A stretch of 64,000 nt of DNA from Mycobacterium dioxanotrophicus (lineage in GTDB: Bacteria; Actinomycetota; Actinomycetes; Mycobacteriales; Mycobacteriaceae): assembly GCF_002157835.1 (NCBI RefSeq), contig NZ_CP020809.1, positions 186,001 through 250,000 on the forward strand. The letters run 5' to 3'. Numbering within the stretch: position 1 is the first letter of the stretch; each line of letters starts with the position of its first letter. The notes below the pieces were generated by a model, which was not told the origin of the DNA, did not search any database, and saw only the letters and a list, made by a program, of their open reading frames with translations. Position numbers and translations under genes: made by a program. Positions 5,611-17,323 of this stretch are shown here, in pieces.

Positions 5611-6849
5611 CTACCGTGCGGCAGAACCATTTCCGACTGCCAACAGCGCCCGCCCGTTGACGGGAGCGGTTCGCGGTGTCGGGGTCGTGCGCTTGGCCTT
5701 CATGTCGCGGCCGGTCGCGATCGACCACTGGTTGATGATGTCGAGCATGTCGCGGCGGAGTTGGTTCGGCGGACCCGAGGTCGGGTCGGCATAGAGCGCG
5801 CTGACTGCGCTGATCGAGTTGTAGACGCCCTCCTCGATGTGCCGGAACAGCGGTGACATCCGGGGCGCAAGCCGGAAGAAGCTCTCCGACTGCGCGTGCG
5901 GTGCGAGCCCGACGCGCTCACCGATCTTCCGGAGCCGTTCCTCGGGGCTGGCGGCGGTGGCCTTGAGATCGACGACGACGGAGTTGTTCGATTCGAGAGT
6001 CAGGTCGAACCACGAGAGCATGCTGACGATCACGAATTCTTCGCGCGCCAGGTTGCCGAAACGACGTCGGGTGGTCAGCATGTCCTGCATGTCCCGGGCA
6101 TGCGTCGCGATGGCTGCGTCGTCTTTGCTGTTGATGCCACTGGTATTTCGGTAATTCTCCGACGCCGTCCACACCTCGCGAAGGAAATCCTCGAAGGTGC
6201 GGATGAGGCCGGTGTTGGCGGCTTGGGCGCGTACATAGCTGTACGGGGCCCCGTTGTTGGCTCCGTGGTTGAGGTCGACCCCGAACAGCCGGTAGTAGGC
6301 GTTTCGCCGGGTGGCCTCGAGGTCGGGCCGGACCGAACTGGTGATCGCCCCGATGGATCGGGAGGGTAGGTCACGCATGAACAGGGCCTCGGTGGTTCTC
6401 AACCACTGCTGTGTGGCCGGCGACGGTACTTCGAGACGCTCGCCGTGCAGGAACTCGGTGACCACCCGGAAGAAGATCGGGAGCAGACGTGTGTTCTCGA
6501 TGAGATACGCGTAGATGAGGTGGTCCCAGCGCGCTCCCGTGCCGGAATCGGGCGGCGGCGCCGAGGCCCAGGTGGGCAGGGTGCCGTAGATGGTGCCGTT
6601 GACAGCGCTCAACCGCTTATGAAGCCCGGATTCGAAGCCGGGTGCCTGGCCGTAGAGCAGTGCCGGCGGCAACTGGAAGCCCGGCAGTGATTGACTTCCG
6701 TACGCCCATGACTCCTCGAGAAACCGGAGGATCTCCTCCGGGTGCAGGGCGAATACATCGTTGGCCGCTTTGGTGGCCTGCTCAATGACATCGGTTGTGC
6801 CACTGGCACGTTCCAGGTCGGCGAACCAACTGGCCAGTTCGAGCATCAT
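5611..6849 (-). CDS. Unrecognised 412-residue protein, last gene of the four-gene operon
   Basis: A soluble, largely helical protein with no signal peptide, no obvious membrane helix and no known motif. It is rich in aromatic residues in its first half (GTIYGTLPTWAS, WDHLIYAYLIENTRLLPIFF) and ends in a basic, disordered Thr/Pro tail (KAKRTTPTPRTAP). It starts with a tandem ATGATG; AAAGGAG lies seven bases upstream. Its start overlaps the stop of the gene at 6846-7445 by four bases, so the two are translationally coupled. The function is unknown; the context suggests it works with the HExxH protein and the 826-residue protein. Confidence 0.68.
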   Translation of the reverse strand: MMLELASWFADLERASGTTDVIEQATKAANDVFALHPEEILRFLEESWAYGSQSLPGFQLPPALLYGQAPGFESGLHKRLSAVNGTIYGTLPTWASAPPPDSGTGARWDHLIYAYLIENTRLLPIFFRVVTEFLHGERLEVPSPATQQWLRTTEALFMRDLPSRSIGAITSSVRPDLEATRRNAYYRLFGVDLNHGANNGAPYSYVRAQAANTGLIRTFEDFLREVWTASENYRNTSGINSKDDAAIATHARDMQDMLTTRRRFGNLAREEFVIVSMLSWFDLTLESNNSVVVDLKATAASPEERLRKIGERVGLAPHAQSESFFRLAPRMSPLFRHIEEGVYNSISAVSALYADPTSGPPNQLRRDMLDIINQWSIATGRDMKAKRTTPTPRTAPVNGRALLAVGNGSAAR

Positions 6850-7445
6850 CGGACTGCTCCTTTTGCGGTGGGGATGTGCACATCGAACGTGGTGGTGAAG
6901 GATTCGTTAGCCGTCGTGCGAACGGTGACGGGTCCGGTCGTCGCGCCGTCCGGTATCACTGCCTGGTACCACTGGCGGCCGCTGGTCGAGCCGGCGCACC
7001 GGACTGTCAAGGGCGTGGGCACCACATTGAGCACGCCGCCGTCGACACCGGTGCTGAACGCGACATCGTCTGCGGCAGCGGCAGACTGGAGCACGAAGAC
7101 CACCACCGGTTGAGTCTCGCACTCGTAGACGTGCAGCGAGACCAGCCGTCCGGGGCCGATCACATCGTCGTCATCGGGGCCCGCGAGTTGTTGTCGCAGT
7201 GCCGCATACCGGTTGACGATCTGCCGTTCCTCGGCGGTGTAGTCGGTACCCGGCATGACGAAACGGGTACCGAGGGCATTGATCAGCTGATCCAGCAGTG
7301 TCTGATTGCCCTCTTTGAGCTGGTTACCGAATGCTCTGACCACAGTCGTGAGCAGCTCGATGTCGCCGCCGGACTGGTGGCCGTTACCGGCAGAAGGTTG
7401 TCCGCCGCTGGCACCGCGCGCGGACTCCGACGTTGTTGTTGGCAT
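6846..7445 (-). CDS. 199-residue protein with possible Ig-like C-terminus
   Basis: ATG 7445 is preferred to an in-frame TTG at 7454 because AAAGGGA lies nine bases before the ATG. The N-terminal half is low-complexity then helical. The C-terminal half is beta-rich (LVSLHVYECETQPVVVFVLQ, then WYQAVIPDGATTGPVTVRTT), resembling an immunoglobulin/IPT-type domain, though the match is weak. There is no signal peptide. It is the third gene of the minus-strand operon, 15 bases after the HExxH gene and overlapping the next by four bases. It may be an adaptor or structural partner. Confidence 0.6.
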   Translation of the reverse strand: MPTTTSESARGASGGQPSAGNGHQSGGDIELLTTVVRAFGNQLKEGNQTLLDQLINALGTRFVMPGTDYTAEERQIVNRYAALRQQLAGPDDDDVIGPGRLVSLHVYECETQPVVVFVLQSAAAADDVAFSTGVDGGVLNVVPTPLTVRCAGSTSGRQWYQAVIPDGATTGPVTVRTTANESFTTTFDVHIPTAKGAVR

Positions 7446-7460
7446 GGCTCTCAATCCCTT

Positions 7461-8723
7461 TCACGCTACTTGTGCCGCGTCGGTGAGGGTTCCCAGCCGG
7501 CGCATCCAGATCTCGAAATCGCGCGCCGACGCGGCGGCACTCTCCGGTTTGGCTGCCACGTTGTAGGACGCGAGCGCCAACAGACGCAGTCCCTCGGACT
7601 GCAGGTAATGACTCGACACCGTCAGCGCGGTTCCGGCTGTGCGCTCGAGGTCCGCCAGCGCGGCCGGTGATACCCGGCCCGGGTCGACGACGTCGCACAG
7701 TGCCTTACCGGCGAAGGCCCGCATCGGTGTTCGCAGGCCGATCTCGACGATCCGCGGAAGCGACTCGATGCTGCGTTCGATCAACGGCCGAACCGCGGCA
7801 GGTGCCGCCGCGAGCGGATAGGCGACCTGCCAAGCCTGTGCGAGGGTATCCCAGGGGCCCGTGCCATAGAAGCGCTTGCACATCTCGACACCCACCAGCA
7901 CCCGCAGGTAGGCGATCGGATGCGGATCACCGAGCGGCAACGCAAACACCCGCTGGACGTCGTTGACCACGTCGTGCAGCGCAGCCACCGCACCGAACCC
8001 GCTGTGCGCGAACGCAAGGAGGTCTGGTCCGAGTTCAGTCGCCCAGCCTGACCACATCTCGGCGACGATCGGATCGGCGATGCCGCGCCGCAGAGCGGTG
8101 GTCAACTCGTCGTTCCATCCGGTCAGGTGTGCCACCTGGTGGCCTGCTTCGTGCAGCATCGACGTCGGCCGCATCATGTTGAACCGCGTGAGTTTGATCG
8201 CCGCGGCCGGGGACGGTGATCCGCCTTCCCACGCCCGCCAGCCTGCCCGCAGAATCGACGCACCGAGCCCGTTGTCGAGATACACGAGAACAGGCGGTGT
8301 GTCGAGGCGCAGCGGGCGCAACGCGGCCCGCATGCTTTCCGCGGCGAGAAAGTCGAAGGCACGCAGGAGTTCTCCGAGTGCCGCACTCGTCCGGGAACGA
8401 ACGGCATTGCCGTAGAAGCTCAGTACCGTCTCGAGTTGCAGAAACCGTCGGCGGAACCGGGTGACCCGGGCGTGGCAGCGACGCAGGTCGTCAACCGTGG
8501 AAGCTGCGCGCAGATCGGTTTGGAGGGCGTCGAGTTCGAGCTGGGTGGCCCCGATGAGGCTCGTCAGGTGGCGACGCAGCGCGACGCCGACGTACCGTTC
8601 CAGGGACTGCCAAGCGCTGGTGGCGGCGAAGTTCTCCAAGTCGCTGAGGCCGACCATCGCTGTTTGCCAGTGTGCGATCTCGCCTCTGAGCTCAAAGACG
8701 ATGGAGTCCTGCTGGCTGATCAT
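7461..8723 (-). CDS. Putative HExxH zinc metallopeptidase-like protein
   Basis: A 420-residue protein. Residues 191-195 read HEAGH in the context TSMLHEAGHQVAHLTGW, the zinc-binding signature of metallopeptidases. Glu230 in ATELGPD, about 35 residues later, could be the third ligand, as in gluzincins with an E-x3-D motif. The first 130 residues are helical and basic. No signal peptide is seen, so it acts in the cytoplasm or leaves by a non-Sec route. Its ATG overlaps the stop of the 826-residue protein gene by four bases, so the two are produced together. It might process or be carried with that protein. No named family is recognised. Confidence 0.68.
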   Translation of the reverse strand: MISQQDSIVFELRGEIAHWQTAMVGLSDLENFAATSAWQSLERYVGVALRRHLTSLIGATQLELDALQTDLRAASTVDDLRRCHARVTRFRRRFLQLETVLSFYGNAVRSRTSAALGELLRAFDFLAAESMRAALRPLRLDTPPVLVYLDNGLGASILRAGWRAWEGGSPSPAAAIKLTRFNMMRPTSMLHEAGHQVAHLTGWNDELTTALRRGIADPIVAEMWSGWATELGPDLLAFAHSGFGAVAALHDVVNDVQRVFALPLGDPHPIAYLRVLVGVEMCKRFYGTGPWDTLAQAWQVAYPLAAAPAAVRPLIERSIESLPRIVEIGLRTPMRAFAGKALCDVVDPGRVSPAALADLERTAGTALTVSSHYLQSEGLRLLALASYNVAAKPESAAASARDFEIWMRRLGTLTDAAQVA

Positions 8724-11200
8724 GACTGGAAGCCCGCTACCGAACGCACGGTGACTTCGGGAGAACCCAGGATGGCCCGCGCCACCGCTGTGAAAGAGCC
8801 CAGACCCTTACCGCGCAGCGCGTCGTCGAGCAGTTTCATCGCGCCCGCGTGGCGGATGGCGACGACGATGGTGACCCCTTGGGCCGGCTTGTCGGCTGCG
8901 GTGAGGAACTCTTGTCTGCGGCGCTGAAGGTATTCGGAGACCGCGGTACCGACCCACTCGATGACCTTGTCCGCGAGCTTTTCGAGGATCTTCGCGCCGA
9001 TCGCACTGAGCGCACCACCGACGAACTGTTCCTCGGATGCCACCTCGTGGATGATCTTGACGTGGCGGGACGCATTTCCCGAAAGAACGCTCTTGACCCC
9101 GGCCACGTAGACACGCCTGAGCAGAATCAAAGCGGGCGTTACCGATTCGCCGCGCCGGATCGAGGCTGCCACTGCCTGCGCGTCGCTTTCGTCGAGGTGA
9201 ATGCACAGGCGCGCAGTGGAAGTCGGGAAGTCCAGCGTGATGTTCACCTGACTCGAGTGACCACGCAGCTTCACCGGCTGCGACGATGTGCCCGGGCTTG
9301 TCGGGTGTGCCGTGGTGTGTGCCCGCTGGGGTACGAGCACGACGAACCGCTGTCGGACTGCGATGCGGCGGTGTGAATGCAGGTAGTGGTTGGGCACATC
9401 TCGACCGAGGCCAGGCTCGCCGAAGAGAGCGGTCGCATTGTGCCGGGTCAGCGGTATGAACAGCCGCCAGCCGCGCGGGTGGGTGGGACCCAGACCGGGC
9501 ACGTGGGTCTCCAGACGCGCGATCGTGGAGAGTTTCGTCCCGACCATGGCCTCGAACAGGTACGCCTTGCACGCGACGGGCCCGGTAACGCCGTAACGCG
9601 ATTTCAGGAAGGTACCCAAGTGAATTCCGCCGAAGCCGGTCACCGACTTGGCCAACTGGTGTGTCACCGTCACATCGAGCGGCCGGGAGTAGAAGCGGTA
9701 GCGCTTACGGCCGTTGCGCGGACGCAGAATCCACGTTCCGCGATGCCGCAGGCGCGTGGAGACCTCTTGGTATTGCTCCCGGATCACATTGGTGGGGAAT
9801 GATTCTGATGCCGCTTCGGCGAATGCTTCCTGCACCACCGCCTCCAGCAGGCGTTGGTCCTCGAAAGTCTCGGATTCGAGTTCGGTGAGCCGCTGCACAG
9901 TACCTTCCACCGCCGAGGCGACGGCTTCAGCGGCCAGTTGGGTTTGGTTGCCGGGCACTTCGAGGCCGATCATGCTCATACCGGTCGAGACGATGGCCTG
10001 TGACAGTTGGGTGGCGATCGTGGGCCCGATGTAGGGACGTACGAGCGCGGCAAGATACTTGGCGAGGAACCCCACAACCCGGTCGCGCCCGATGACCGAG
10101 ATACCGATGCGCAGCGCCGCGATGATGGCCGGAATGAAGTTCTCCATGGCCGTGTTGATGGAGGCCTCGTTGGTGGCCTGCGAGATCTCGGTGATGAACC
10201 GCTCACGGGCGGCGTCGAGCTCGGCCAGCCGGTGGTCGGTTTCGGTCTCTGAGGTGACGGACTCGCCCGACATCCAGGCTTCGGAGCTCTCGCTGGACTC
10301 GGCGAAGAGTTCACCGACCAGCTTGGCGTCGATCTCGTGTTGGATGGAGTCGACGTCGGTATGTGCCAGTGCTTGGAGTTCGTTGCCTGCGGCTTCCATC
10401 TGTTCTGCGGAACCGCCGAAGTAGCTCTCGAATTCGCCCTCGGTCTCGCCGATCCCGAACAGTTTGGTCGCGACTTTCCGTGCGGCGGGCCGCAGTGATA
10501 CGGGTAGCCGGCTGAGTGCGAGATCGAGTACTCGCTTCAGCAGGGGCCGGACGATCTTCTTCAGGCCGTTGAGAATGAAGCCGAGCGGAATGACCTTACC
10601 TACCGCGGCGATTCCCTTCTTGGCCAGTCTGATTGCTCCGCCGGCGACCGCCTTTGCCTTCTTCCAGAGTCCCCCGAGGAAGTTCTCGACACCCGGTGAG
10701 AGGTGTTCGAAGCTGGGCTGGATGGTCTCGAAGAGCCGATCCAGTTCTTGCTCGGTGATCTGCGAGATGTCGTGTTGGGCATACTGTTCCGCGTACCGCT
10801 CCAGAAACGACTCTGCTTCGCGCGCTACCGGTGTCATGTAGTTCTCGAGGTAGCGTTCGGCCTCGTTCGTGGAGGCTTCGCCGATCTGCTCGGACATGCT
10901 CGACGACGCCTCGGCCGCGAGCTCGTACAGCGCCTCGGAGAACTCGCTCTCGTACAGGCTCGAGACCACTTCGTCGTACGCTTCCCGGTGGATGTCCGAG
11001 CCCTCGGCGACGACTTCGTCGTAGGCCGAGCGGAACGGGCTTTCCAGTTCGGTGAAGAACTCGAAACCGCCTGTGCTGCTGGCTGATTCCAGATTCTCCG
11101 ACTCTGCCGGGAATGCTTCTCCCTGCTCGGCGAAGTCGAACGTTTCGGTGAACGGGGAGAGGGGAGCGTAGGACTCGCTCTCCATGGATGAGGTAGTCAC
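8720..11200 (-). CDS. 826-residue protein with acidic N-terminus and cationic amphipathic segment
   Basis: This is the first gene of a four-gene operon. GTG 11200 is supported by GGGAGGAG about seven bases upstream. Residues 1-170 are strongly acidic and Glu/Ser-rich with a repeated AYDEVV (59-64, 74-79). Residues 175-250 form a Gly/Ala/Lys-rich amphipathic stretch (FLGGLWKKAKAVAGGA, GKVIPLGFILNGLKKIVRPL) like membrane-active peptides. A second hydrophobic region (IPAIIAALRIGISVIG) follows near residue 360. The C-terminal part is beta-rich with another helix pair (IGAKILEKLADKVIEWVG). There is no signal peptide. The layout suits a toxin-like or scaffold protein whose acidic part masks a cationic segment, but that is inference; no known family is recognised. 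Confidence 0.7.
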   Translation of the reverse strand: MTTSSMESESYAPLSPFTETFDFAEQGEAFPAESENLESASSTGGFEFFTELESPFRSAYDEVVAEGSDIHREAYDEVVSSLYESEFSEALYELAAEASSSMSEQIGEASTNEAERYLENYMTPVAREAESFLERYAEQYAQHDISQITEQELDRLFETIQPSFEHLSPGVENFLGGLWKKAKAVAGGAIRLAKKGIAAVGKVIPLGFILNGLKKIVRPLLKRVLDLALSRLPVSLRPAARKVATKLFGIGETEGEFESYFGGSAEQMEAAGNELQALAHTDVDSIQHEIDAKLVGELFAESSESSEAWMSGESVTSETETDHRLAELDAARERFITEISQATNEASINTAMENFIPAIIAALRIGISVIGRDRVVGFLAKYLAALVRPYIGPTIATQLSQAIVSTGMSMIGLEVPGNQTQLAAEAVASAVEGTVQRLTELESETFEDQRLLEAVVQEAFAEAASESFPTNVIREQYQEVSTRLRHRGTWILRPRNGRKRYRFYSRPLDVTVTHQLAKSVTGFGGIHLGTFLKSRYGVTGPVACKAYLFEAMVGTKLSTIARLETHVPGLGPTHPRGWRLFIPLTRHNATALFGEPGLGRDVPNHYLHSHRRIAVRQRFVVLVPQRAHTTAHPTSPGTSSQPVKLRGHSSQVNITLDFPTSTARLCIHLDESDAQAVAASIRRGESVTPALILLRRVYVAGVKSVLSGNASRHVKIIHEVASEEQFVGGALSAIGAKILEKLADKVIEWVGTAVSEYLQRRRQEFLTAADKPAQGVTIVVAIRHAGAMKLLDDALRGKGLGSFTAVARAILGSPEVTVRSVAGFQS

Positions 11201-11466
11201 GGGTGGTCTCCTCCCACGGCGGATCTGATCTGGGTGCCAAGGTAGCCATCGAGGTGACCGCAGTGAATGCGTAGTGCACTACTCCAATTTCCCACAGGCG
11301 CAGGGGGACTCGCGGCAGTCGTCGCGAATGAAAACACTTGAGGTCGCTGCCGGCAGTCCCGGCGGCGGCGACAGTTACGGCACAGTTCGTTGCTGTTGTC
11401 TGATTTGTCAAAGAGTTGCGGGCGCCCGGTTCGACCAACGCATGGGGTGAGACCGCAATGGTCGGA
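11201..11466. other. Divergent intergenic region
   Basis: This region separates the four-gene operon from the DUF1906 gene. It holds the GGGAGGAG ribosome-binding site of the leftward gene and the upstream promoter DNA of the rightward one. I see no further gene or strong repeat. Confidence 0.5.
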
Positions 11467-11472
11467 TACGCT
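11467..11472 (+). promoter_or_regulatory. -10 hexamer for leaderless DUF1906 transcript
   Basis: TACGCT is followed by seven bases and GTG 11480. There is no Shine-Dalgarno sequence, so a leaderless mRNA is likely. Confidence 0.5.
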
Positions 11473-11479
11473 ACCCTGC

Positions 11480-12259
11480 GTGACGCAAACTGCTTCACGG
11501 CGCGAAGTTCTCAAACGTGCGGCGCTGCTCGCACCGGCGCTGGCCGTTCCCGGTGCTCTGGCCGCGACACTCGGGATGCCGGCAGCATCGGCCGACGGCC
11601 TGCAACTCGTCGATTTCGCCGACCGGCTGGTCCAGCCCGAGCAGATCAAGTCCGCCGGATTCGGCGGAGCCCTGGTCTACGTCTCCGAACTGCGGCCGGG
11701 GGCCACCTTCGACTTCAAGCCCGTCACTCGTGACTATGCCGACCGCCTCCGGGCGGCGGGCCTGCAGATCGTCAGCTGCTACCAGTTCGGCAAGCCTGGG
11801 TGGCCGACGCCGTCAGACTTCACCCGCGGCTACGAAGGAGGCGTGGCCGACGCTCAGACGGCTGTGGGACTGCACACCGCCGCCGGCGGCCCGGTGACGG
11901 CACCCATCTTCTTCAGTGTCGACGAGGACATCGACGCCGCGACATGGAAATCGACAGCCGTGCAATGGTTTCGAGGTATCAACTCCGTCCTCGGCGTTGC
12001 CCGCACCGGTATCTACGGTGGGCGCCGCCAGTGCGGCTGGGCCATCGCCGACGGCGTCATCGGAGCGTCGAGCAACCCAGGCTATCGGTGGGCCTGGCAG
12101 ACGAAGGCCTGGTCACGGGGCGAGCGTGAGCCGGCCGCCGTGCTCTTCCAGAGGGAGGTCGTCACCGCGTCCGACCCGGGTTTCGTGATCGACGGCATCC
12201 ATGTTGACGTAAATGACGTTCTGGCAGCCGATTTCGGCCAGTGGGAGCTCGCGAGATGA
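11480..12259 (+). CDS. Tat-exported DUF1906 (Rv2525c-like) glycoside-hydrolase-fold protein
   Basis: A 259-residue protein beginning VTQTASRREVLKRAALLAPA: a twin-arginine signal (SRREVLK) with a hydrophobic core and a probable cleavage after AASA. The mature domain matches DUF1906, a TIM-barrel glycoside-hydrolase-like family related to GH25 lysozymes. Characteristic stretches are LVDFADRL, QIVSCYQFG, APIFFSVDEDID with acidic residues at the barrel mouth, RTGIYGGRRQC and YRWAWQT. In M. tuberculosis the homologue Rv2525c is a Tat substrate linked to the cell envelope. GTG 11480 is chosen from the leaderless -10 and the position of the Tat motif. It diverges from the four-gene operon, which may be coincidental. 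Confidence 0.85.
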   Translation: MTQTASRREVLKRAALLAPALAVPGALAATLGMPAASADGLQLVDFADRLVQPEQIKSAGFGGALVYVSELRPGATFDFKPVTRDYADRLRAAGLQIVSCYQFGKPGWPTPSDFTRGYEGGVADAQTAVGLHTAAGGPVTAPIFFSVDEDIDAATWKSTAVQWFRGINSVLGVARTGIYGGRRQCGWAIADGVIGASSNPGYRWAWQTKAWSRGEREPAAVLFQREVVTASDPGFVIDGIHVDVNDVLAADFGQWELAR

Positions 12260-12263
12260 CGGC

Positions 12264-13289
12264 TCAGCGGAAGCGTACATCCATCGTCGCCAGGCCGAAG
12301 ATCTTGCGGCCACCGGATTTCGCCGCGACGATGACGACGCCGGTGCGGGTCTGCGGGTCCAGCGACTTGATGCGGCCGCTGAACTCGATGTCCGATCCCT
12401 CTTTGGCCGACACGATGGCAGGCTGAGACAGCCGCACGGCGTAGCGGGTCACCGCACCGGGGTCGCCCGACCAAGCGGAGACAAATCCGGCGCCCAAGCC
12501 CATGGTCAGCATGCCGTGGGCGATCACGTCGGGCAGACCCGCGAGTTTGGCGATGTCCTCGTCCCAGTGGATCGGGTTGGCGTCGCCTGCGACGCCCGCG
12601 TAGTTCACCAGGTCGCCGCGAGAGAGCCGGTAGTTGTGCACGCCCAGCTCGTCACCGACCTTCACGTCCTCGAAGGACGGCGTCCCCGGGGTACGCGTGT
12701 CAGGCCGGGCGATGCGCACCTCGCCTTCCGGCCGCACGGTCTTCTGATAGTCGGCGTCGGACGCGCCGATACCGGAGAAGTCCACGTCGTGCATCATCGC
12801 GTTCTGCACGGCCGCCATCGTCCCTGGGTTGATGTCGTCCGCAGTGACGCCGACCACCGTGGTGTGCAAGGTGTGCACGCGCTCGCCGCCGGTGTCGGTG
12901 AAAGTGTTGGTGACCGTGATCAGATCTCGGCCGGCGATCCTGCGCACGGACGTCAGCTCCACGTCGACCTGCAACTCGTCGCCGGCGACGATCGGGCGAT
13001 GCTGCTCGAAGACCTCTTCGGTCTGCAAGTAGGTGTCATAACCGACGACCACCGACTCGAACATGCGACGGTTGGCCGCCATGGCCGGGGTCGAAGTGAA
13101 CGTCAGCGGCGCGACCAGACCGGAATAGCCCAGCTCAGCGGCGGCGGAGACGTTCCAATGTGCGGGGTGGTAGTCCTGCACGGCACGGGCGTACTCGCGC
13201 ACCTTCTCGCGGCCGACTCGGTAGGTGTCGTCCGCCTGGTAATAGTGGCCGACCCGGGATTCGAGTGCCGACGTCTCTGCTGCGGTCAT
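12264..13289 (-). CDS. Fused HadA/HadB-like (3R)-hydroxyacyl-ACP dehydratase
   Basis: Two hot-dog domains are joined in 341 residues. The N-terminal one (YRVGREKVREYARAVQDYHP) matches HadA, which forms the substrate channel. The C-terminal one (YRLSRGDLVNYAGVAGDANP, then IHWDEDIAKLAGLPDVIAHG) matches HadB/MaoC with the hydratase D-x(4)-H motif (DANPIH). In mycobacteria HadAB dehydrates intermediates in FAS-II mycolate synthesis; a fused paralogue may serve another fatty-acid route. ATG 13289 is preferred because it gives the family's usual N-terminal length; GTG 13340 and ATG 13310 are in-frame alternatives without ribosome-binding sites. It is nearly tail-to-tail with the DUF1906 gene. Confidence 0.85.
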   Translation of the reverse strand: MTAAETSALESRVGHYYQADDTYRVGREKVREYARAVQDYHPAHWNVSAAAELGYSGLVAPLTFTSTPAMAANRRMFESVVVGYDTYLQTEEVFEQHRPIVAGDELQVDVELTSVRRIAGRDLITVTNTFTDTGGERVHTLHTTVVGVTADDINPGTMAAVQNAMMHDVDFSGIGASDADYQKTVRPEGEVRIARPDTRTPGTPSFEDVKVGDELGVHNYRLSRGDLVNYAGVAGDANPIHWDEDIAKLAGLPDVIAHGMLTMGLGAGFVSAWSGDPGAVTRYAVRLSQPAIVSAKEGSDIEFSGRIKSLDPQTRTGVVIVAAKSGGRKIFGLATMDVRFR

Positions 13290-13490: not shown

Positions 13491-14711
13491 ATGTATTCGG
13501 TGACCGATCGCGTGCTTGTCCTCGGATCCGGTTTCGCAGGCTTGTGGGCGGCGCTCGGAGCAGCCCGTCGCCTTGACGAGCTCGGTGTGTCGCCCGACGC
13601 CGTCGAGGTGGTGGTCATCAGCGCGCAACCGTTCCACGACATCCGGGTCCGCAATTATGAAGCCGACATCAGTGCGTGCCGCATACCGCTGGACGATGTA
13701 CTCGAACCCGCCGGAGTCCAGCACGTCGTCGGTGACGTGACCGGCATCGACACAGCGGCACGCACCGTGTCCCTGGCCGATGGCACGACGTACGGCTTCG
13801 ATCGGTTGGTGCTCGCGGTGGGCAGCGAGGTGGTCCGCCCCAGCCTCCCTGGCTTGTTGGAGTTCGGGTTTGACGTCGACACCTATGACGCCGCGCAGCG
13901 GCTGCAGGATCACCTCCGAACCCTCGCCGGCTGCGTCGGGGACCCCACGGCGGCGACGGCGGTGGTGGTTGGGGCCGGTCTCACGGGCATCGAGACGGCG
14001 TGCGAATTGCCGGACATCATGAGGACGGCATTCGGCGGCGACGTGACACCGCATGTGGTGCTGATCGACCACAACCCCTACGTCGGCTCGAACATGGGTG
14101 AATCCGCACGTCCGGTCATCGAGAAAGCGTTGGCGGACAACGGAGTAGAGGCGATGACGGGTGTTCGGGTGGCCACCGTCGACCGGACGGGCATCACGCT
14201 GTCCTCGGGTGAGGTGCTGCCGGCGGCCACCGTCGTGTGGTGCGCGGGCATGCGGGCCAACCCGTTGACCGCGCAACTCGGCGTCGAGCGAGACGGTTTG
14301 GGGCGGGTACCGGTCGACGACTATCTGCGGGTGATCGGCGTGCCCGGAGTGTTCGCCGCGGGCGATGTCGCCGCAGCGCGCATGGACGACGAACATCTCT
14401 CGGTGATGTCGTGCCAGCACTCGCGGCCGATGGGCCGGTACGCGGGCTACAACGTGATCAGCGACTTGTGCGGTGAACCCCTGCTGCCCCTGCGAATCCC
14501 TTGGTACGTCACGGTTCTCGACCTCGGTCCGGCGGGCGCCGTCTATACCGAAGGTTGGGACCGCCACGTGGTGGCCGACGGTGAGCAGGCCAAGATCACC
14601 AAGCGCGTCATCAACACCCAACGCATCTACCCGCCGCTGGATCGGGACAGGACGGCACTGCTGGCAGCGGCCGCCCCGACCCTGCAGACCGCACCCGCCC
14701 GCGGAGAGTAG
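13491..14711 (+). CDS. FAD-dependent pyridine nucleotide-disulfide oxidoreductase (NDH-2-like)
   Basis: A 406-residue two-dinucleotide-fold protein. The FAD-binding motif is VLVLGSGFAGLWAALGAARR at the N-terminus, the NAD(P)-binding motif is VVVGAGLTGIETACEL in the middle, and the FAD-contacting motif is GVFAAGDVAAARM. The layout is that of type II NADH dehydrogenases and related quinone reductases, but it lacks an obvious C-terminal membrane anchor, so it may be a soluble dehydrogenase. ATG 13491 fits the conserved N-terminus; the longer open frame from 13404 adds a basic, non-conserved stretch. It is followed by a membrane protein gene on the same strand. Confidence 0.82.
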   Translation: MYSVTDRVLVLGSGFAGLWAALGAARRLDELGVSPDAVEVVVISAQPFHDIRVRNYEADISACRIPLDDVLEPAGVQHVVGDVTGIDTAARTVSLADGTTYGFDRLVLAVGSEVVRPSLPGLLEFGFDVDTYDAAQRLQDHLRTLAGCVGDPTAATAVVVGAGLTGIETACELPDIMRTAFGGDVTPHVVLIDHNPYVGSNMGESARPVIEKALADNGVEAMTGVRVATVDRTGITLSSGEVLPAATVVWCAGMRANPLTAQLGVERDGLGRVPVDDYLRVIGVPGVFAAGDVAAARMDDEHLSVMSCQHSRPMGRYAGYNVISDLCGEPLLPLRIPWYVTVLDLGPAGAVYTEGWDRHVVADGEQAKITKRVINTQRIYPPLDRDRTALLAAAAPTLQTAPARGE

Positions 14712-14742
14712 GGCACGAACTGCAGGTCACGTGCCTGATCCC

Positions 14743-14748
14743 TACTAT
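14743..14748 (+). promoter_or_regulatory. -10 hexamer for leaderless membrane-protein transcript
   Basis: TACTAT is followed by six bases and ATG 14755, the layout of a leaderless mycobacterial start. Confidence 0.5.
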
Positions 14749-14754
14749 CTGGGG

Positions 14755-15552
14755 ATGGTCTGGCTCAACGAGTGGTGGCAGCACGAGATCGTCCATGGGT
14801 ACAAAGGGCCGCTGCTGCTGAGCTTCGTGGCGTTCGTCGTGACCTTCGTGACGACCCGGACCATCACCCGGCTGATCCGAGCCGGCAAGGGCCCCTTCCA
14901 CAACGTCAGCACCGGTGGCGTCCACATGCACCACTCGACGCCGGGAGTGCTGCTGCTCATCGCGGGTGCGTTCATGGGCGTCGGTTCGCCACCGCTGTCG
15001 GTGTGGACCTATGTGGCGGGTGTGCTGATCGGCGTCGGGGCGTCCCTCGTGCTCGACGAATTCGCGATGATCTTCCGGTTGCAGGACGTGTACTGGTCGC
15101 AGGAAGGCCAGCTGTCGGTGAACATCGTCACCCTCGCGGCGGCATGCATCGGTCTGGCGGCGGTCGGGGTGTCACCGGTCAAGGTGCATGACGTCCCCGG
15201 GGCCGTCACCGCGGTGCGGATCGCGGCGGTGGTGCTGCTCGTGTTCCACTTCTTGGTGGTCGCCCTCACGGCCTTGAAAGGCAAGTACCCGACCGCCCTG
15301 GTCGGCTTGTTCGTCTCACCGGTCGCCTGGGTGGCCGCCGTGCGGCTGGCCCGACCGACCTCACCGTGGGCGCGCTGGCGCTACGACGCGAAGAAGCTGG
15401 CACATGCCCAACGCCGTGCCGCCGCCTTCGACCGACGCTGGGCACCGGTACGCCGGCACTGGGACGACTTCATCGGTGGCACACCGACATCGGATGAGCC
15501 GCAACCCGCGTCCGCGCCGCCCGGCGGTGGGACCGTCGACCACGACCGCTAG
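14755..15552 (+). CDS. Integral membrane protein of unknown function
   Basis: A 265-residue protein with about six to seven membrane helices (LLLSFVAFVVTFVTTRTITR; GVLLLIAGAFMGVG; YVAGVLIGVGASLVLDEFAM; and others). A His-rich loop VSTGGVHMHHSTPG lies between the first two helices and could bind metal or be catalytic. The tail is basic then Pro-rich and cytoplasmic. I do not recognise the family. ATG 14755 is chosen from the leaderless -10; GTG 14731 is in frame. Its TAG overlaps the stop of the convergent gene by two bases (CTAG, 15549-15552). Confidence 0.7.
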   Translation: MVWLNEWWQHEIVHGYKGPLLLSFVAFVVTFVTTRTITRLIRAGKGPFHNVSTGGVHMHHSTPGVLLLIAGAFMGVGSPPLSVWTYVAGVLIGVGASLVLDEFAMIFRLQDVYWSQEGQLSVNIVTLAAACIGLAAVGVSPVKVHDVPGAVTAVRIAAVVLLVFHFLVVALTALKGKYPTALVGLFVSPVAWVAAVRLARPTSPWARWRYDAKKLAHAQRRAAAFDRRWAPVRRHWDDFIGGTPTSDEPQPASAPPGGGTVDHDR

Positions 15553-16721
15553 TCGGTTGCCTCGACGACCTTTTGGAGCTCGAGGTAGGCATCCGTGTAT
15601 GCGGCCCATCGCTGCGGGATCACCACGTCGACCACGTTCTCGAGTGCGACCGCGAGCTGGCCGGGAAGGTCGGTGACGGCCGCGATCTCTGAGTAGTTCG
15701 ATCGTTCGTGTGGGTCTGCGCCCCGCTCGATCAGCGCGACGAACTTGTCGATGTAGGTGCTGTACCAGGTGCCGTAGGGCGGATCCAAGGACCGATCAGC
15801 GCGCTTGAACGCCTGGACCGCTTTGACGTATTCGATCAAGGGTGCGTCGACGGATGTGCCGAACAGTTTGCGGTCGGCCTCCAACTTCGCGGCGACGCGA
15901 TCGAGGCTCGTGCGCCCGAGTATCTTCCTGCGTCGCAGTGTTCTGAGTCGCTGCATTGTTTCTGTCAGGCTCGTGCCGGTGCGCAGCGCCTCGAGTGTTT
16001 CCCCGAACCCCGACTGGTAATCCTCGGCGACTTCGTGCATGAGCTGGTGGGCGGGGCGGATGTGATTGTTGAACCACACTCGTCGTTTCGCCGTGCTCAG
16101 GTCTCCATCGGCCAGGACATGCTCGACGAATGACTGCACCGCCGAACGGATCTCCTCGGACAGCCGAGACTCGACGCCGGCGAGTTGATCGCGGGTTTCT
16201 TCGTCGGAGAGCAGCTTGGCGAGTTGTTGAAGGTCGGCGTTGGTCACGGACTGTATGCGGACCTGTGCGAGCCACGTCGCGGTGAACACCGCAGCGAACG
16301 CATCGGCATCGATCTTGGGGATGCCCATCTCGTCCGACAGCGACGTCAACGAGGTCGTCGCCGGGTAGTCCTCCGGGAGCCCCCGGACCGGCGCGTTGGC
16401 CTCGTTGATTCCTGCGGCGACGATGCTGTGCAGGGTCTCGGTAATGGTGGAGCCGAGCGGGGCGCCGCCGACATTGACCCCGTCCTTCCAGAACATCTCC
16501 AAGATGTTGAACGCGCGTTGACGTTGTGCCTCGGTGGCCTCGGCACCCAGGGCGGACGCGACCGCTGCTTTCAGGGCGACGTCGGTCGGCCCCTTGAGCG
16601 CGTTCTCCAGGGGGTCCCCGAGGATGAGTGCGCTGAATTTCTTGCTGTATTTCTTACGGATCGGGTCAGATGCCGCATCGAAGAGTTTCTTGATGATCCA
16701 GAGGGTCACGGGTTCCGACAC
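15549..16721 (-). CDS. Unrecognised 390-residue helical protein
   Basis: GTG 16721 is supported by AAGGAGG five bases upstream; a longer open frame to 16898 lacks this. The protein starts SEPVTLWIIKKLFDAASDPI and continues as charged, Ala/Leu-rich helices (RRRKILGRTSLDRVAAKLEA; IEYVKAVQAFKRADRS), with no signal peptide or catalytic motif. It could form helical bundles or bind a partner. It diverges from a small secreted-protein gene across a pair of 13-bp direct repeats. The function is unknown. Confidence 0.65.
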   Translation of the reverse strand: MSEPVTLWIIKKLFDAASDPIRKKYSKKFSALILGDPLENALKGPTDVALKAAVASALGAEATEAQRQRAFNILEMFWKDGVNVGGAPLGSTITETLHSIVAAGINEANAPVRGLPEDYPATTSLTSLSDEMGIPKIDADAFAAVFTATWLAQVRIQSVTNADLQQLAKLLSDEETRDQLAGVESRLSEEIRSAVQSFVEHVLADGDLSTAKRRVWFNNHIRPAHQLMHEVAEDYQSGFGETLEALRTGTSLTETMQRLRTLRRRKILGRTSLDRVAAKLEADRKLFGTSVDAPLIEYVKAVQAFKRADRSLDPPYGTWYSTYIDKFVALIERGADPHERSNYSEIAAVTDLPGQLAVALENVVDVVIPQRWAAYTDAYLELQKVVEATD

Positions 16722-16877
16722 GAGAACCTCCTTCGACACAGCCCGAGATGCACCGGTGCACCTCATTCGACCGCAGTCGCGTCGGCGCTCGGTGCTAACG
16801 ATAACGCCGAGGAGCGGGCACGCGATGGCTCCGCCACCGGATCGGCCGGCGCCGCATTGTTCGGTATGTGTTTGGCC

Positions 16878-16918
16878 TGAATTCGATATGCAACTCACTT
16901 CTATTTGAATTCGATATG
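16878..16918. repeat. Pair of 13-bp direct repeats in a divergent promoter region
   Basis: TGAATTCGATATG occurs exactly at 16878-16890 and 16906-16918, 28 bp apart start to start, in an otherwise AT-rich patch between two divergent genes. This could be a tandem operator. Confidence 0.65.
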
Positions 16919-16984
16919 AAGTCGCGCGCCATTGTATGTCGCTCTATAAAGTTGACGAATCGATGAACAAATTCCTAGAAGGGC

Positions 16985-17323
16985 ATGACGGACTCAATGA
17001 CAATAGGTGCGAATGTGGCGGCAATGGCGTTCATCGGGTTGGGGACTGTTGGGGCGGTGAACGCTGTGTCTGCTTCTGCCGCACCTTCGCCGGAATCGTC
17101 GGCGAGCGAGACCATCGGTCAGCTACAGAGCGAGGGCTACCGTGTCATCGTCAGCAAGGTTGGCAGTGGGTCGATCGATGATTGCGTGGTCAGTGCGGTT
17201 CGGCAAGGACGTTCGGTAACCGGTCCGCAGCCGCCGGCAGTGGCCAATGGAATCACCACAATGGGGCCCGGTCAGGTATTGCAATACACCACGGTGTACG
17301 TCGACCTCGCATGCAAGCGTTGA
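16985..17323 (+). CDS. Small secreted protein of unknown function
   Basis: A 112-residue protein with a Sec signal (AAMAFIGLGTVGAVNAVSAS, cleavage near ASA). The mature part contains two cysteines (DDCVVSAVRQG and DLACKR), probably a disulfide, and the stretch GYRVIVSKVGSG typical of small mycobacterial exported proteins of about 100 residues. AGAAGG lies just before the ATG. No enzymatic function is apparent. Confidence 0.65.
   Translation: MTDSMTIGANVAAMAFIGLGTVGAVNAVSASAAPSPESSASETIGQLQSEGYRVIVSKVGSGSIDDCVVSAVRQGRSVTGPQPPAVANGITTMGPGQVLQYTTVYVDLACKR

Follow-up and report, generated by a model that had tools for sequence, protein, structure and literature searches.

We asked what four closely packed minus-strand genes (A to D) could accomplish together in a 64,000-nucleotide stretch of Mycobacterium dioxanotrophicus DNA (contig NZ_CP020809.1, positions 186,001 to 250,000, analysed whole and referred to hereafter as the window). 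Gene A (8720..11200, GTG start) encodes 826 residues; gene B (7461..8723, ATG start) a gluzincin-like metallopeptidase of 420 residues with an HEAGH motif; gene C (6846..7445, ATG start, alternative TTG start at 7454) a short, fast-diverging protein of 199 residues between B and D; and gene D (5611..6849, ATG start) a conserved protein of 412 residues that is predicted to be all-helical and has no clear known fold. These open reading frames lie exactly where an earlier reading of the window from its sequence (the original prediction) had placed them, with overlaps of 4 bases at A/B and C/D and a gap of 15 bases at B/C, an arrangement which suggests that all four are co-translated. We tentatively favor the view that A–D are the core of a horizontally spread, undescribed cassette delivering cell-wall-active proteins out of its producer, with a Ser-Pro-Phe (SPF) motif as the address tag. 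That A, B, and D are three widely conserved, linked, and co-evolving families without a Pfam or NCBIfam match is solid; the function of the cassette is a reasoned guess.

The families extend far from the window. Relatives of B at an expectation value (E) of 0.001 or better numbered 928 among 7,996 candidates scored, and those of A 76 among equally many. A contig scan using one genome per species returned 102 places with a B relative, the best 80 of which were kept as loci L002–L081; their genes were called with a home-made codon-usage caller, such that the starts of the downstream proteins described below may be off. By record title, Actinomycetota account for 44 of the 80 loci, and the others fall in Bacteroidota (including Aquimarina, Dyadobacter, Chitinophaga, and Runella), Pseudomonadota (including Bradyrhizobium, Cupriavidus, Lysobacter, and Nitrosomonas), the cyanobacterium Nodosilinea, metagenome-assembled genomes (MAGs) of Nitrospira, Verrucomicrobia (two), and Phycisphaerae, and the archaeon Methanosarcina. 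Clustering called A in 77, B in 79, and D in 78 loci, and wherever all three were called (74 of 74) they stood on one strand in the order A-B-(C)-D. By phmmer, B is present in 80/80 loci. L020 is the one locus without A, and three more (L025, L027, and L058) have it in partial or split form; D is absent only in L007 and L051. With the exception of L027, the contigs of these loci end near the missing or partial gene. A regulator family recurs in 32 loci (BTAD-type in the one member checked).

Co-occurrence is equally strict within the class to which the window belongs: among 394 genomes D is found in nine, B with E below 1e-100 is found in the same nine, and three further genomes have a weak B only (E 7e-22 to 3e-36) with no D at E 1e-20. 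The eight of these nine that were examined all match the A profile beside B, the ninth being the window itself. Tree distances of A, B, and D correlate with one another (73 taxa; rho 0.78, 0.70, and 0.73, compared with at most 0.19 in 500 label permutations), a correlation that could come partly from joint descent of whole cassettes. The linkage seen in the original prediction is thus conserved far beyond actinobacteria, and A, B, and D must be real genes rather than chance reading frames or a local oddity, because their homologues are found across many, and distant, phyla; the codon-position G+C of A, B, C, and D alike is also coding-like. In mycobacteria the cassette looks like a sporadic acquisition, because few genomes of the genus carry B or A (B at E 1e-10 in four of 198, two strong and two weak; A, among 61 relatives of the window's genome, in that genome only) and because the copy in Mycolicibacterium komossense (L065) is a different one, only 42% identical and equipped with the additional gene discussed next. 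Near-identical loci with B 96–97% identical occur in Mycolicibacterium brisbanense, Mycobacterium aquaticum, and Mycobacterium sp. 852013-50091. A phage or plasmid module was considered and rejected (0 matches in 50,697 phage records, no confirmed relative on viral contigs, and five distant partial matches on large plasmids).

In most loci D is followed by a fifth gene, which could not be seen from the window alone because the window's clade lacks it at this position. A same-strand gene starts within 150 nucleotides of the end of D in 59 of the 74 loci with at least 900 nucleotides after D (median gap 19 nucleotides), and three loci counted as lacking one have a candidate that was missed through a 283-nucleotide gap (L027), a missing gene call (L029), or a split frame (L031). 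The products, referred to here as cargo, span 317–2110 residues and vary in domain content. Domain scanning covered 46 of the 90 listed downstream proteins (including a few plain neighbors: a helicase, a BTAD regulator, PpoB2), and the overlapping counts that follow draw on 25 of the 37 families matched and are per family rather than per protein: Peptidase_M15_3 (10), Peptidase_M15_2 (8), PG_binding_1, glucosaminidase, and VanY (6 each), with DUF2272, Peptidase_M15_4, and Trypsin_2 (3 each), tyrosinase and Amidase_2 (2 each), and single SLT, M23, M74, phage-lysozyme, and M35 matches. When ten cargo proteins hand-picked from the 46 were scanned singly, six had a peptidoglycan-hydrolase domain over the cut-off, two DUF4056, one a sub-threshold OmpA match, and one nothing. 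The cargo of L054 unites M35, VanY, glucosaminidase, and peptidoglycan-binding domains in one protein, and that of L129 carries an OmpA-type domain. Cargo N-termini stand apart from those of other flank genes both in charge (median net charge of the first 120 residues −18 vs −1) and in the absence of a hydrophobic stretch (0/59 vs 215/638). In Mumia (L026:12826-15715), the post-D protein belongs to a cluster with peptidoglycan-binding-like and tyrosinase-like sequence and is followed by a small gene, probably a PpoB2 copper-chaperone match; cargo is therefore not always wall-cutting.

What ties the variable cargo to the constant A is a short motif in their N-terminal tails. Defined as [STNAG]PF within the first 120 residues, the SPF-type motif occurs in 73/76 A and 38/59 cargo proteins, compared with 0/78 for B, 11/76 for D, and 48/638 for other flank genes; the corresponding Fisher p of 5e-24 is not independent, given that the motif was chosen after viewing the same loci and that related loci are counted several times. 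Shuffled tails yield the motif less often (A, mean 10 and maximum 18; cargo, mean 7 and maximum 14), as do internal 120-residue windows (A, 13/390; cargo, 25/363). Its frequency in cargo is 17/34 in Actinomycetota vs 21/25 in other loci, and some cargo proteins without the exact motif have related forms such as TPL, SPL, and SPY. Two archaeal loci beyond the original set (see below) and five new actinobacterial loci (L126, L129, and L131–L133, all from one genus) serve as a partly independent check; in four of these five an ESPF cargo begins 11–14 nucleotides after D, and the fifth, whose B is close to that of the window, has no cargo. A search with one cargo tail returned three homologous proteins, two with trypsin or amidase domains. 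L024 may carry two cargo proteins, because a further gene downstream (14647-17265) likewise encodes an acidic, SPF-bearing tail. Since the tag is common to constant A and to variable, signal-less, often wall-active enzymes, the simplest reading is that both are brought to one machine via the tag.

The anatomy of A is consistent with such a role for its tail. The AlphaFold2 model (76 sequences) is confident (predicted local distance difference test (pLDDT) score 81.5, predicted template-modeling score 0.84) and comprises a long helical part to residue ~467 followed by an alpha/beta part to residue 822 (C-terminal part 490–822); pLDDT falls below 50 at residues 1–14 and 18–53, so that residues 1–53 are mostly predicted to be disordered. 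In our alignment of A (A2, 76 rows), the only columns of residues 1–60 besides Met1 that are kept in at least 60% of rows are P16, F17, S54, P55, and F56, all of which belong to the two SPF motifs. The first (residues 15–17; 11150..11158, minus strand) retains P16 in 71/76 rows and F17 in 73/76, and in the second (residues 54–56; 11033..11041, minus strand) P55 and F56 are invariant. Fixed residues within a predicted disordered and otherwise free-running tail have the look of a short binding motif. Beyond the tail, the acidic-then-cationic design noted in the original prediction is preserved in 76/76 rows, with an acidic helical part (residues 56–168, net charge −11 or lower in every row), a cationic amphipathic part (169–248, +8 or higher in every row), and a second acidic part (249–316, above zero in only 1/76). 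A hydrophobic helix pair follows at ~345–390 and contains the strongest 19-residue segment (around residue 360) in 48/76 sequences; only 40/76 attain the usual membrane-segment score of 1.6.

The HEAGH motif of B (residues 191–195), which the original prediction had paired with a spaced Glu, proved to be part of a fixed set: all 31 aligned sequences (window B and 30 homologues at 51–97% identity) share H191, E192, H195, E230, and D234. Gluzincins use a downstream Glu as third zinc ligand, often within an ExxxD arrangement; in B this ligand would probably be E230, with D234 four residues on. At clan level, B therefore resembles gluzincin-type zinc metallopeptidases (HExxH, followed by an invariant Glu and, four positions on, an Asp) but differs from known members in having no Pfam or NCBIfam match, in finding only a chance-like helical match among solved-structure sequences, and in being linked to A and D. 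Protein C keeps its position between B and D but not its sequence, being short and variable across the loci, and a domain scan of 39 C proteins gave only single matches at usable E-values (one CARDB, one fn3). As predicted, none of the four window proteins has a hydrophobic leader by reading; a simple hydropathy test on the first 40 residues of called genes in the loci found a hydrophobic stretch in 1/76 A, 0/78 B, and 8/76 D.

Methanosarcina sp. MSH10X1 (L014), whose genome encodes methyl-CoM reductase, carries A-B-C-D together with a cargo containing DUF2272, SLT transglycosylase, and peptidoglycan-binding domains. Among 59 genomes (this one and its relatives) B occurs in three and cargo in the same three; in the two other carriers the order A-B-C-D-cargo is complete, the flanking genes are similar, and the cargo has three SPF-type motifs in its tail and peptidoglycan-binding and SLT domains. 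Contamination was rejected as the origin of L014: an exchanger gene ~5 kb from B on the same contig is 74–80% identical in seven related genomes, and the two other carriers, each on a single contig (3.28 and 3.13 Mb), have the whole cassette too. The nearest relative of the Methanosarcina B is that of the Nitrospira MAG, which speaks for horizontal transfer. Methanosarcina is not known to make murein; the substrate of its cargo is therefore likely to belong to other organisms. On the favored reading, the cassette is probably directed against bacteria. Archaeal hydrolases and pseudomurein are treated in the retrieved passages of PMC12352652, where a known signal peptide is given for 67/210 archaeal hydrolases and those lacking one are somewhat enriched in genomes with a sheath gene (P = 0.059). 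The bacteria-killing archaeal peptidoglycan hydrolases of these passages and the cassette cargo are alike as murein-directed enzymes in archaea; the active examples there carry twin-arginine signals, whereas cassette cargo has no hydrophobic leader. The same passages contain no such cassette, and the main text has neither Methanosarcina nor DUF2272 (one "Methanosarcina" occurs in the whole record).

How might the cassette work? The acidic N-terminal SPF tails of A and of cargo could share a binding partner (D is the likeliest, with B, during processing, as the alternative), and the tail would substitute for a signal peptide as the address tag. A would then be the membrane-active part that permits passage through the membrane, its acidic region restraining the cationic amphipathic region and the hydrophobic helix pair; B, judged by its zinc-protease residues, may trim or activate A and/or cargo, or trim the SPF tails; and C would be a variable adaptor. 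The usual outcome would be the release of peptidoglycan hydrolases or binding proteins onto neighboring bacteria, which might be killed; in the window's clade A may act alone or with unlinked cargo, because no cargo gene lies beside the cassette there. The fuller form of this proposal, a new delivery system of bacteria and archaea in which a core of A, B, and D with adaptor C would export large peptidoglycan-active effectors or inject them, each effector bearing an acidic SPF tail as its mark (a tag that A shares), is possible but doubtful. Were it true, one delivery system would work across very different envelopes, and the exit of some signal-less wall-cutting enzymes would be explained in archaea and bacteria alike, a point that the available passages of PMC12352652 leave open for archaea. 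The SPF motif gives a concrete, testable tag that could identify further cargo. Even without export, three widely conserved, co-evolving families merit names of their own; two of these also lack a clear fold match. A literature search returned no paper recognizable as describing the cassette, a weak test given partial coverage and a cassette that has no name to search.

Several observations weigh against delivery by tag. Fold searches with the A and D models gave nothing beyond common helical similarity (TIPE, FliS, talin, transporters), and since neither protein has a clear match to a known fold, no function can be derived from structure. The exact motif is absent from 21/59 cargo (17/34 in Actinomycetota, 4/25 elsewhere); 16 of these 21 are still acid-rich, and five are not. 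Tyrosinase, trypsin-like, M35, and DUF4056 domains do not obviously suit a wall-directed weapon. The cassettes of the window, its three mycobacterial relatives, Nocardia niwae, and a further genome (G409) stand without cargo beside them. When the window's genome was searched with a restrictive motif, 26 pattern matches were obtained vs 34 for a reversed-pattern control, and on inspection A alone among the 26 had a long acidic N-terminal tail, leaving no further SPF protein in that search.

The chief rival, which we consider rather unlikely, casts A itself as the effector. In this view A is membrane-active but caged, its acidic tail neutralizing the cationic and hydrophobic parts until B cleaves it, and the downstream enzymes are helpers that open the target wall. 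The charge pattern found in all 76 rows and the hydrophobic helix pair at ~345–390 speak for it, the window's clade has A–D without adjacent cargo, and the neighbors of distant B relatives are other acid-rich proteins whose hydrophobic core is basic or glycine-rich. Yet A is as constant as B and D and co-evolves with them, whereas effectors typically diversify; a simple pore peptide does not account for the 330-residue alpha/beta part at its C-terminus; and barely half of the sequences (40/76) reach the membrane-segment score of 1.6. The original prediction had envisaged an effector-like protein made with a protease, and here the two halves part company: B keeps its zinc-protease residues, whereas the constancy of A and its co-evolution with B and D make it more likely a core component than an effector, and the variable, effector-like element is the fifth gene. 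The cationic segment may be masked, as also suggested there, and a toxin activated by the protease is possible too. The observations of that first reading are thus confirmed and its interpretation partly supported, and their significance is larger than could be known from the window. Tag-directed delivery and a caged A are compatible, and the window's clade may be closer to the latter.

Lysis or wall remodeling directed at the producer itself is unlikely. Here A would be a holin-like permeabilizer and the cargo an endolysin-like enzyme acting, for release or growth, on the wall of the cell that makes it; cargo domains do overlap those of endolysins and autolysins, and cargo without signals fits holin-type release. 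However, Methanosarcina and the two related archaea carry an SLT murein transglycosylase/peptidoglycan-binding cargo where murein is not known, and the phage records and viral contigs described above hold no match and no confirmed relative, respectively. Holin/endolysin-type release pairs a small membrane protein with a peptidoglycan hydrolase; the cassette has hydrolase cargo, and A is 826 residues long with one borderline membrane segment.

We regard it as quite improbable that a known machine (contractile injection, type VI, type VII, or another exporter) carries the cargo and perhaps A, with A–D as loading factors. Peptidoglycan-active effectors of contractile and type VI systems are delivered without a classical signal peptide, and signal-less hydrolases are typical of contractile-system cargo; the cassette cargo is alike in this respect, and A–D are unlike those systems in matching no sheath, tube, or baseplate family, in having a different conserved core, and in the SPF tail. 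The sheath-gene enrichment in PMC12352652 (P = 0.059 in the passages retrieved) also favors such a machine. On the other side, the cassette spans one-membrane, two-membrane, and archaeal envelopes, which share few machines, and A–D match no family of such systems in the libraries scanned. With regard to type VII (ESX/LXG) features, Pfam and NCBIfam scans found no WXG100, LXG, PE, or PPE domain in A–D, and with regard to anti-phage defense, no PADLOC model was matched by A–D. Finally, an intracellular assembly or storage complex, in which SPF tails hold cargo on an A/B/D scaffold and nothing is exported, would agree with the lack of an N-terminal hydrophobic leader on B and cargo (and on all but 1/76 A) but is very improbable, given that peptidoglycan-cleaving and peptidoglycan-binding domains have no cytoplasmic substrate.

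A second, distantly related cassette type accompanies weak B relatives, which in four of five genomes (G066, G215, G487, and G544, not G491) stand beside acid-rich proteins with a basic/glycine-rich hydrophobic core. It consists of a B-like peptidase with one or two acid-rich proteins (L084, L085, L135 at 6277-10845, L137 at 6439-9967, L138 at 9505-12770, and L139), and the acid-rich proteins scanned had no Pfam match over the cut-off. In L135, one acid-rich protein weakly matches the A profile and a 522-residue protein the D profile (E 5e-5 to 6e-4, with few sequences searched). Both cassette types thus place a B-like peptidase beside a protein whose tail is acidic and whose hydrophobic core is basic or rich in glycine; the second differs in that its A-like proteins have only ~250–450 residues, D is not strongly matched, and no SPF tail is obvious by reading. 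These loci hint at a wider family of acid-tail and B-type-protease cassettes.

Library searches bear out the earlier view that A–D belong to no described family or system: scans of A–D against Pfam, NCBIfam, PHROGs, and PADLOC gave no match over a curated cut-off, or none that was convincing; when profiles of A, B, and D were run against the sequences of solved structures, matches were weak and chance-like or absent. Matches judged to be chance were DapB_C on A (E 0.058, 13.9 bits against a cut-off of 27) and AacA37 on D (E 0.089), both sub-threshold, an ice-binding protein on A (E 0.02), and SRN2 on B (E 0.003, from 53 residues of the helical N-terminus).

Around the cassette, a Shine-Dalgarno-like GGGAGGAG can be read from the sequence 5′ of the gene A GTG (11208..11215, minus strand), and AAAGGAG, likewise Shine-Dalgarno-like, 5′ of the gene D ATG. 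In Nocardia niwae (L004:3887-6425), an EACC1-domain gene and a caspase-domain gene immediately precede A on its strand, a pairing known from NTP-dependent conflict systems. The intergenic region upstream of A in the window is shared with a divergent Rv2525c-like gene (11390-12259, plus strand; PF08924, E 2e-37) whose product has a twin-arginine-like leader. The flanking Rv2525c-like, MaoC-like, and methyltransferase genes were set aside as system parts, being matched only in the close mycobacterial loci L002, L003, and L005 of the 80. Outside the finding, the minus strand of the window at 705-2387 encodes an ordinary serine beta-lactamase-fold protein (PF00144), PBP4B/esterase-like.

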